Of a stretch of 64,000 bases of DNA, positions 38,036 to 40,692 are shown piece by piece; the stretch's first letter is position 1; the number at the start of each line of letters is the position of its first letter. The notes under the pieces were generated by a model that saw only the letters and a program-made list of their open reading frames with translations, was not told where the DNA came from and searched no databases. Where the stretch lies: contig CAIPKV010000032.1 in NCBI GenBank assembly GCA_903865745.1, positions 1-64,000 of the forward strand, given 5' to 3'. The stretch is from an uncultured Verrucomicrobia subdivision 3 bacterium (lineage in GTDB: Bacteria > Verrucomicrobiota > Verrucomicrobiia > Limisphaerales > UBA11358). Made by a program: the position numbers and the translations under genes.

Positions 38036-38218
38036 ATGAGCACAGAAGAAAGATTGAAGCGTTTATTTGAAGCTTCGCCAGACCAACTTGGCGCTATTGA
38101 TGGCATTCTCGAAGGGAAAAACCAAACGAAGGCGGCGGAAACGGTTGGCCACTTTTAATGGGAATGAAGGCAGCGGCAAAATTTCTCGGTGTCAACCGCA
38201 CAACCATGTGGCGAATGG
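38036..38218 (+). pseudogene. Frameshifted copy of the excisionase-like gene
   Basis: Begins MSTEERLKRLFEASPDQL and ILEGKNQTKAAETVGHF, then stops because of a one-base deletion compared with the intact copy at 38309. In the shifted frame it continues LMGMKAAAKFLGVNRTTMWR before being cut at codon ~60, where it joins the tail of a second 117-aa-type gene. Confidence 0.75.
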
Positions 38219-38220
38219 TT

Positions 38221-38301
38221 AGCGACCGGCCGTTTGTCACTAACTTGATGGTGCGGGTTTTAGGGGATTCAAGTTCTGCTACGGAAAAATCACCCGGCTA
38301 A
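38221..38301 (+). pseudogene. Duplicated tail of the 117-aa gene
   Basis: SDRPFVTNLMVRVLGDSSS ending in TEKSPG corresponds to the last residues of the 117-aa protein (SDRPFITNLVIRVLEQP). It precedes the intact excisionase-like gene at the same spacing as the first pair, which shows a tandem duplication of the two-gene unit with a deletion inside. Confidence 0.7.
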
Positions 38302-38308
38302 ATCTGCA

Positions 38309-38584
38309 ATGAGCACGGAAGAGAGATTGAAGCGGCTTTTCGATGCCTCGCCGGAACAACTCGCCGTTGTTTGTAAAATTCTTGAAGGAAAATTTCAAAC
38401 AACGACTGTGGAAACAGTCGGGCCGCTTTTGATGGGAATGAAGGTGGCGGCAAAATTTCTCGGTGTCAGCCGCACAACCCTATGGCGAATGGTTATTGAT
38501 GGTCGCCTCAAAAGGGTTGAGGTCTTGCCTGGCAGCTTTCGACTTCGGCGCGCTGATCTCGAAGCGATTGCCAATAATAATTAA
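38309..38584 (+). CDS. Excisionase-type helix-turn-helix DNA-binding protein
   Basis: The 91-residue protein has an N-terminal acidic-basic helix (MSTEERLKRLFDASPEQL). Its C-terminal MerR/excisionase-like winged helix reads GMKVAAKFLGVSRTTLWRMV, IDGRLKRVEVLPGSFRLR, RADLEAIA. Such proteins direct excision of integrated elements or repress nearby promoters. It may bind the direct repeats at 38618-38654, just downstream. Two degenerate copies of the gene lie at 38036 and 40352. Confidence 0.75.
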   Translation: MSTEERLKRLFDASPEQLAVVCKILEGKFQTTTVETVGPLLMGMKVAAKFLGVSRTTLWRMVIDGRLKRVEVLPGSFRLRRADLEAIANNN

Positions 38585-38617
38585 GCTCTCCAGACAGAAA
38601 ATTTAGCTTCGATTAAG

Positions 38618-38665
38618 CATAATAACAGAGTCTTTATTGACATAATAACAGAGTTGAATTATACA
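38618..38665 (+). promoter_or_regulatory. Promoter with two operator-like direct repeats before fic
   Basis: TTGACA (38637-38642), a 17-bp spacer and TATACA (38660-38665) form a near-ideal sigma-70 promoter. The 14-bp sequence CATAATAACAGAGT occurs twice, at 38618-38631 and 38641-38654, with a 23-bp period. The second copy overlaps the -35 end and spacer. This is a typical autorepressor site; the binder could be the AbiEi-like part of the Fic protein or the excisionase-like protein upstream. Confidence 0.7.
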
Positions 38666-38688
38666 GTGTTGCATAGTCGAAACCCAAT

Positions 38689-40236
38689 ATGGCCACCAAA
38701 CTACAAACCCGGCTAGCGGATGCTCTGGAGCGCGTCCGTGCGCAGGCTGCAAAAGCGGTGGTCAAGGCTGCCACCCTCAAACGGGCCGACAAGGAACTGC
38801 TGCTGAAGCTGGGGTATCTGCAGGAAATCTGCAAAGGCTGGTATCTGCTGACGCGTCCCGGCCAGAAGCCCGGCGAGAGCACGGCTTGGTATGCGTCATT
38901 CTGGGTTTTTCTGTCGGTTTATCTGGATGACCGGTTTGGACAAGACTATTGCCTATCGGCCGTTTCTTCCATGGACTTGCACGTTGGCCAGTGCCTCATT
39001 CCGCAGCAGGTGACGGTCATCGCCGCGCGGGGCGGGGCGATGGTGCTCAAGCTGCCCCACGGCACCTCCATTTTGGTTTATCAAGACCGGAAGAACCTGC
39101 CGGCAACGGTGGAAATGATGAACGGTCTGCGGGTGATGCCGCTCCCGCTGGCACTGGCCCGGATGCCGGCCAGTTTTTTCCAGAACTCGGCGACGGATGC
39201 CGAGATCGCGCTGCGTTCGGTGAAATCCGTCAGCGACCTGATCCGCGTCGTGCTGGAATTGGAATCGCCGGTGCTGGCCGGGCGGCTGTCCGGAGCCTAT
39301 GCGTTTTTGGGTGATCGGCAGAAATCGCGGGAAATTCTCAATGCCGCCCAGGCCGCTGGGCTGCTTTGTGAACCGGCGAACCCGTTTGAAAAACCAGCTC
39401 CGATATTCCGAGGGCGGGCGCGGCTGGTTTCACCGTATGCCGGTAGGATTGAATCGCTGTTTCAAACCAGCCGTGAGGCGGTGCTGAAAGTATTTGCCGA
39501 CCTGCCGCCACGGCGCGTGGCAAATCCCGCCAGCTATCTGAAGCAGGTGGAGGTGGTTTATGAACATGACGCCTACAATTCGCTTTCAATTGAAGGCTAC
39601 CGGGTGACGCCGGAACTGATCGCCCAAATCCGGCAAGGGTCATGGCATCCCGAGAACAACTTGCAGGATCAACAGCAAGTCGCGGCCATGGCGGCCAAAG
39701 GATATTTGGAGGCCTTCCGGCTTGTTAAGGAGAGCGTGAGGCAAGTGTTGCAGGGAAAGCCGGCGTCGGGCGTTGCGGCACATGACTATCAGCTTTGGTA
39801 TCGAGCATTTTTCAGCGAGTCGGTGCGCGCAGGCTTGATGGAGGCATATCATCTGGCCGGACATCGGGACGGCAATGTTTTCATTCGTATGTCCCGCCAC
39901 GTTCCCCCGCCGCCCACGGCAGTCGATGACGCCATGAAGGCGTTTTTTGACGGATTGCAGGCAGAACAGGAACCCATCGTAAGGGCCGTTCTGGGGCACT
40001 GGTTGTTCGGGTTCATCCACCCCTACCGGGACGGGAACGGACGGGTGGCCCGTTTTCTCATGAATCTGATGCTGGCATCTGGAGGCTATCGGTGGACCAT
40101 TGTGCGCAACCGTCGGCGGAAGGAATATCTCAACGCTTTGGAAGCGGCATCCACGGAACTGCGGATTGAACCCTTTGCCCGTTTCATCCGGGAGGAAATG
40201 CAGGTGGACTGGACGCAGCAACCGGCGGAAATATAG
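38689..40236 (+). CDS. Fic-domain AMP transferase with AbiEi-like N-terminus
   Basis: The 515-residue protein has an N-terminal winged-helix/AbiEi-like region (LLKLGYLQEICKGWYLLTRP, PQQVTVIAARGG). A Fic domain holds the catalytic loop HPYRDGNGR starting at His444. The inhibitory motif S-x-x-x-E-G (SLSIEG, residues 298-303) lies before the Fic core, as in class II Fic proteins, where the Glu blocks ATP gamma-phosphate binding. Fic enzymes transfer AMP to target proteins. The fusion resembles self-contained toxin-antitoxin or defence proteins. It sits on a mobile remnant, downstream of its own operator-like promoter and between broken copies of an excisionase gene. Confidence 0.9.
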   Translation: MATKLQTRLADALERVRAQAAKAVVKAATLKRADKELLLKLGYLQEICKGWYLLTRPGQKPGESTAWYASFWVFLSVYLDDRFGQDYCLSAVSSMDLHVGQCLIPQQVTVIAARGGAMVLKLPHGTSILVYQDRKNLPATVEMMNGLRVMPLPLALARMPASFFQNSATDAEIALRSVKSVSDLIRVVLELESPVLAGRLSGAYAFLGDRQKSREILNAAQAAGLLCEPANPFEKPAPIFRGRARLVSPYAGRIESLFQTSREAVLKVFADLPPRRVANPASYLKQVEVVYEHDAYNSLSIEGYRVTPELIAQIRQGSWHPENNLQDQQQVAAMAAKGYLEAFRLVKESVRQVLQGKPASGVAAHDYQLWYRAFFSESVRAGLMEAYHLAGHRDGNVFIRMSRHVPPPPTAVDDAMKAFFDGLQAEQEPIVRAVLGHWLFGFIHPYRDGNGRVARFLMNLMLASGGYRWTIVRNRRRKEYLNALEAASTELRIEPFARFIREEMQVDWTQQPAEI

Positions 40237-40351: not shown

Positions 40352-40447
40352 CTCAAAAGGGTTGAAGTCTTACCCGGCAGCTTTCGACTTCGGCGTGATG
40401 ATCTTGAAGCGATTGCCAACAGAAATCAACCCCTCAAACAGCTATGA
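40352..40447 (+). pseudogene. Third copy, C-terminal fragment of the excisionase-like gene
   Basis: LKRVEVLPGSFRLRRDDLE and AIANRNQPLKQL repeat the end of the intact gene at 38309 (LKRVEVLPGSFRLRRADLE) with an extended tail. The start is missing. The Fic gene lies between this fragment and the intact copy. Confidence 0.75.
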
Positions 40448-40642
40448 ATTTTTGTGGACATTTTCGCATTTGGTGGCAAAAATCACGTCGAATCTTGTTG
40501 GTGGTTTTGTTGGTTTTTGTGCGAGAAATTGCAGGGTGTTTCAGTCGGTTCCAATTTTTGCTTGGAAGCGAAAAAAGCCAGTAAATACCCCATTAAAATC
40601 AATGTTCTGAGATAAAATTGAAATTCAGCAGGAGCGGTGAAA

Positions 40643-40692
40643 TCAGGCTCATAACCTGAAGGTCGTTGGTTCAAATCCAGCCCCCGCAACCA
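40643..40692 (+). tRNA. 3' half of an initiator-type tRNA-Met (attachment-site remnant)
   Basis: The sequence starts with the anticodon stem-loop (TCAGG CTCATAA CCTGA, anticodon CAT), has a T arm (GTTGG TTCAAAT CCAGC) and ends CCCCGCAACCA with an encoded CCA. The 3' acceptor strand matches initiator tRNAs, whose first base would mispair with A72. The upstream bases do not form an acceptor or D arm, so the 5' half is absent. This is what remains when an element integrates into, or recombines at, a tRNA gene. Confidence 0.65.

Follow-up and report, generated by a model that had tools for sequence, protein, structure and literature searches.

The window, by which we mean the whole 64,000-nucleotide stretch analyzed here from an uncultured Verrucomicrobia subdivision 3 bacterium, contains a Fic family gene preceded by a short tandem repeat that overlaps promoter-like hexamers. 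This arrangement raises the question of which protein reads the repeat, and whether the Fic protein itself could do so and thereby control its own expression. The features of the locus that bear on this question are the following:

38616..38631, + strand: predicted operator repeat 1, AGCATAATAACAGAGT
38637..38642, + strand: -35-like hexamer TTGACA, found in the same register in loci L004, L013, and L026
38639..38654, + strand: predicted operator repeat 2, GACATAATAACAGAGT, whose GACA arm coincides with the last four bases of the -35 hexamer
38660..38665, + strand: -10-like hexamer TATACA, 4/6 to TATAAT, after a 17-bp spacer
38662..38677, + strand: predicted degenerate operator repeat 3, TACAGTGTTGCATAGT, whose TACA arm coincides with the last four bases of the -10 hexamer
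38689..40236, + strand: AbiEi-like/Fic fusion gene, 515 aa
38689..38856, + strand: 5' segment of this gene, with model secondary structure and a match to AbiEi (6y8q) and Rv2827c (1zel)
38941..39228, + strand: predicted nucleotidyltransferase-like half of the AbiEi module (residues 85-180); of the protein parts compared, its divergence follows the operator core most closely
39580..39597, + strand: class II inhibitory motif SLSIEG (residues 298-303)
40018..40044, + strand: Fic catalytic motif HPYRDGNGR (residues 444-452)

The repeat itself is as the first-pass annotation of this DNA had described it: two exact copies of CATAATAACAGAGT occupy positions 38618-38631 and 38641-38654 of the + strand, with a period of 23 bp. 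A third, degenerate copy at 38664-38677, which that annotation had not noted, matches CATAATAACAGAGT at 8/14 positions and keeps the 23-bp register, ending in CATAGT where repeats 1 and 2 end in CAGAGT. The three-copy score of this array has p = 0.003, the floor for the 300 dinucleotide shuffles used. Allowing up to two mismatches, only 0.10 matches to CATAATAACAGAGT are expected over the whole window. The 3.6-Mb genome has no exact copy besides the two in the window, and it yields no more near matches with two mismatches for CATAATAACAGAGT than for the reversed control pattern, so we regard CATAATAACAGAGT as a local site and reject it as a regulon motif.

The overlapping promoter had been called perfect. 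Both hexamers and the 17-bp spacing are indeed present, but the -10 hexamer lacks the final T of TATAAT, and the sigma-70 scanner did not include TTGACA-17-TATACA among its listed promoters; the -35 element is good and the -10 element weak. The 23-bp period had been equated with about two helical turns. It corresponds to 2.2 turns, so neighboring sites do not lie exactly on one face of the helix.

The C-terminal part of the protein holds the Fic domain. Pfam Fic matches residues 390-462 (E = 3.1e-14), and the conserved HPYRDGNGR agrees with the Fic core pattern HPFx[D/E]GN[G/K]R apart from an F to Y substitution. N-terminal to this core, SLSIEG matches the inhibitory pattern [S/T]xxxE[G/N], aligns with the IEG of FICD, and is kept in at least 90% of homologs; the protein thus carries its own inhibitory glutamate motif, as had been claimed. 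The N-terminal domain (residues 1-274) has no match in Pfam, NCBIfam, or PHROGs. Its AlphaFold model (pLDDT 86, pTM 0.80) comprises a winged helix-turn-helix (wHTH, residues 2-54), a nucleotidyltransferase-like part (residues 85-180), and helices, which is the combination of wHTH and C-terminal AbiEi fold expected of an AbiEi antitoxin. The best solved matches, covering most of the module, are AbiEi 6y8q (Foldseek E = 3e-4; VIA Z = 9.2, rmsd 5.2, 176 aligned) and Rv2827c 1zel (Z = 9.9, rmsd 4.8, 220 aligned), although chance alone often gives Z values of 7 to 8 and these two stand only moderately above the next-ranked nucleotidyltransferases, which have the fold in common with the second half of the AbiEi module only. 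A profile-profile comparison with AbiEi is colinear but weak (E = 0.003, probability 11%), and single-sequence hhalign of the window protein against AbiEi is not significant. The AbiEi-like region proposed earlier, to which Pfam is blind, was therefore borne out by structure comparison only. In the full-length model (pLDDT 88.9), FICD is the best match for the part beyond the AbiEi module. On these models, the N-terminal part is an AbiEi-like module fused to a class II Fic domain.

To place this protein in a wider context, we surveyed homologs. They occur in 9 of 387 genomes of the phylum, with more in the class and order, where many of the weaker matches are Fic-only. A search of the class around a second center recovered the same genomes. 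No other genome among those listed for the genus of the window carries the gene, which is accordingly accessory. Homologs also occur on viral contigs and on plasmids of Alpha-, Beta-, and Gammaproteobacteria and Bacteroidota, including 74 plasmid records in which at least 80% of the query is covered. The annotated neighbors are unrelated and differ from one plasmid record to the next, suggesting that AbiEi-Fic is a single gene; no AbiEii/DUF1814 nucleotidyltransferase operon partner was found in these plasmid records, and the toxin part of the family is the fused Fic domain. In a Mesorhizobium huakuii plasmid copy (L128:896-2433), the gene is split into two ORFs, annotated as a hypothetical protein and a Fic family protein, with the operator array still present.

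The repeats are far more widespread than their sequence. We scored three 16-mers spaced 22-25 bp apart within the 180 bp before each start codon against 300-500 dinucleotide shuffles and found arrays with p < 0.01 upstream of 38 of 41 distinct homologs, with L008, L028, and L065 below the three-copy threshold. The viral-contig loci gave p < 0.01 for all but L085 (p = 0.02), adding 6 of 7 further distinct loci (L082 and L087 duplicate others), and all eight held-out loci fetched afterwards have an array. In total, 52 of 56 distinct homologs from Verrucomicrobiota, Proteobacteria, Bacteroidota plasmids, and viral contigs have tandem direct repeats upstream with a 22-25 bp period, although some are near relatives and the 56 do not represent independent events. 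Arrays hold two to six copies, and the mean triple score is 24 at the true period versus 15-16 at control periods in the same sequences. Among Fic genes without the AbiEi part, none of 13 has an array. Standalone AbiEi_4 genes of the class, scored over a slightly wider period range (20-26 bp), have one in 2 of 30 cases, namely L106 (for example ACCGACCCCCGCCTTA and a near copy) and L107. Homologous loci without the repeat had been named as the observation that would count against the proposal: the sole clear full-length homolog with no array is L008 (upstream of position 1486), where regulation may differ or the start may be misjudged, and L028, L065, and L085 fall short of p < 0.01. Taken across these loci, the tandem array is a trait of the whole AbiEi-Fic family. 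A single fixed register between hexamers and repeats is not; it is common to a subset of loci only, and we rejected it for the family as a whole.

Conservation of the 14-mer upstream of homologous genes had also been named as a check. What is kept is the array and not the 14-mer. Once the repeats are brought into a common register, all show C-A at positions 3-4 as well as A at positions 7 and 9, and each locus joins its own 5-7 bp core to a shared arm, ACA-N-N-A-N-A. At core positions 11-15, identity is 0.86-0.99 within an array versus 0.32-0.52 between loci; the within-array values are inflated because arrays were detected by likeness, which leaves the arm-versus-core and between-locus contrasts unaffected. 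Representative cores are:

ACAGAGT: window, L004
ACACAGT: L013
AGCGAAT: L006, L011
AGCTAAT: L069
ACCTATA: L063
ACTTGT: L054, L074, L087
AACGTG: L060, L070
TTAGTG: L066, L072
CAATCGT: L086

To see whether the core varies with one part of the protein more than with another, we compared core and protein distances across 36 loci with a clear register, leaving out ten with a weak or uncertain register or a partial protein. In Mantel-type tests, from which shared ancestry is not fully removed, core distance correlates with residues 85-180 when the wHTH and Fic parts are controlled (partial r = 0.49, p = 0.0003), and the corresponding values given the other two parts are -0.05 for the wHTH and -0.13 for Fic. 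In a sliding scan along the protein, the signal is highest at residues 109-132, which lie within the nucleotidyltransferase-like half and are rich in strands. The nearest-neighbor test gave 0.35 for the nucleotidyltransferase-like part, 0.42 for the wHTH, and 0.50 for Fic, with 0.60 for all pairs. By these comparisons, core divergence does not follow the Fic part beyond relatedness, and we are fairly confident that the operator core and the AbiEi-like module diverge together. Tentatively, the data point to its second, nucleotidyltransferase-like half as the reader of the core.

The nucleotidyltransferase-like fold is not usually considered a sequence-specific DNA reader, and wHTH domains are the customary ones. 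A variant of the autorepression model in which the wHTH alone reads the operator, with the nucleotidyltransferase-like signal being residual phylogeny, is one that we place a little short of even odds. It gains from the modest gap seen in information-matched column subsets (r = 0.47 ± 0.07 for residues 85-180, 0.36 ± 0.05 for the wHTH, and 0.32 for Fic), but sits poorly with the near-zero wHTH partial correlation once the other half is accounted for, and with the near-identical recognition helices RTDRERLLRSGFL, RTHRERLLKAGFL, and RVHRERLLQHGFL, which face different cores (AGCGAAT, ACCTAAA, and ACTTGT). The most specific form of our own model, that single-gene AbiEi-Fic autorepressors with private operators span phyla, the wHTH reading the arm and the nucleotidyltransferase-like domain the core, is one that we entertain only provisionally, at somewhat below an even chance.

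A different candidate binder is the excisionase-like HTH_17 protein encoded directly upstream of the repeats (38309-38584). Direct repeats near attachment sites are frequent targets of Xis-type proteins, and the region resembles a degraded integrative element, with a tRNA-Met fragment and duplicated HTH_17 pieces. We nevertheless consider it unlikely that the repeats are operators of this or another protein: plasmid homologs from three proteobacterial classes and Bacteroidota have arrays with no HTH_17 gene annotated upstream, no such gene adjoins the homologs fetched with annotation, and the core tracks the N-terminal module of the Fic protein itself.

The surroundings of the gene hold further traces of the apparent element. 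At 40633-40689 of the window lies a 3' fragment of tRNA-Met(CAT). Contig C42 of this genome carries an intact tRNA-Met (L119:1466-1542) that shares 98% identity with the fragment over 54 nt, and the fragment looks like the attachment-site duplicate of an integrated element. Duplicated and broken copies of the HTH_17 gene flank the Fic gene at 38040-38230, 38309-38584, and 40352-40435, in blocks 86-91% identical. An HTH_17-like end also adjoins the tRNA-Met on C42, where an ORF on the minus strand beside the intact tRNA (L119:1806-2345) shares its terminal VLPGSFRLRRADLEAI with the window HTH_17 gene and seems to be a fusion of this end with other sequence.

Type III toxin-antitoxin loci carry tandem repeats, transcribed into RNA, ahead of the toxin gene. 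It is highly improbable that the present repeats, despite forming 2-6 tandem units directly before a toxin-like gene, are transcribed as such an RNA antitoxin, because they overlap promoter hexamers in the window group, six arrays fold no better than shuffles (z = -1.8 to +0.7), no Rfam match covers the arrays, and the conserved unit is short with variable filler; we therefore rejected a type III identity, and we know of no type III system whose toxin is a Fic protein.

Autorepression by the fusion protein also fits well with characterized systems. AbiEi and Rv2827c are published autorepressors that bind 23-bp sites over their own promoters (PMC3985639, PMC7319586), and the two do not bind each other's sites (PMC7319586). 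These type IV AbiE proteins (6y8q from S. agalactiae and 1zel from M. tuberculosis) have the same two-part fold as the window module. Unlike them, the window module shares a single gene with a Fic domain, no AbiEii nucleotidyltransferase partner is seen, and the window protein has no significant AbiEi profile hit. The sites differ as well: those of AbiEi are 23-bp inverted repeats, whereas those of AbiEi-Fic are tandem direct repeats with a 22-25 bp period, a distinction that leaves some room for short inverted repeats at these loci. CccR of Yersinia pseudotuberculosis is likewise a Fic protein with its own DNA-binding domain that represses its own promoter near the -35/-10 region, with a C-terminal HTH acting on palindromic sites (PMC9755527), in contrast to the N-terminal module and direct repeats of AbiEi-Fic. 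CbFic2 of Coxiella burnetii (PMC10628234) and SoFic also combine a class II Fic domain and a wHTH in one chain, but this wHTH is of another type, and no tandem operator array is described in PMC10628234. FICD/HYPE, to which the Fic part is closest in sequence and fold among solved structures, inhibitory motif included, is eukaryotic and has a TPR domain and no DNA-binding module. On our reading, AbiEi-Fic works like AbiEi and CccR and is a member of neither as defined, being one gene with direct repeats and an N-terminal module. The open-access literature on Fic and AbiEi that we consulted, which was not exhaustive, describes no AbiEi-Fic fusion and no direct-repeat Fic operators.

Because AbiEi, Rv2827c, and CccR repress their own promoters, the AbiEi-Fic protein should bind its repeats and block its promoter. 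We therefore propose, with a probability of roughly 0.8, that the gene is a single-gene, toxin-antitoxin-like autorepressor with private tandem operators. In this model, one chain would carry a predicted AbiEi-type repressor module (wHTH plus nucleotidyltransferase-like domain) followed by a predicted class II AMPylating Fic domain. The module would bind the tandem repeats over the -35/-10 region, perhaps cooperatively, and shut its own promoter, keeping the protein level low; two things would restrain the Fic domain, its low expression and the inhibitory glutamate helix that it carries. The operator core would have changed together with the AbiEi-like part while the arm stayed shared, and such private operators should stop cross-repression between co-resident copies. 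Two earlier suggestions emerge as the best-supported readings: autorepression, since arrays are kept in unrelated contexts and absent at Fic genes without the AbiEi part, and the union of toxin, inhibitor, and regulator in one chain, given the clear AbiEi fold match and the presence of SLSIEG.

If this is correct, a plasmid and chromosomal family annotated only as "Fic family protein" would consist of toxin-like units that bring their own regulation and have predicted operators. The co-diverging operator-protein pairs would be ready for use in studying how an AbiEi-type module selects its DNA, and would suggest why such genes can coexist without cross-talk. The private-operator reading, if true, would make the family a natural set of orthogonal repressor-operator pairs.
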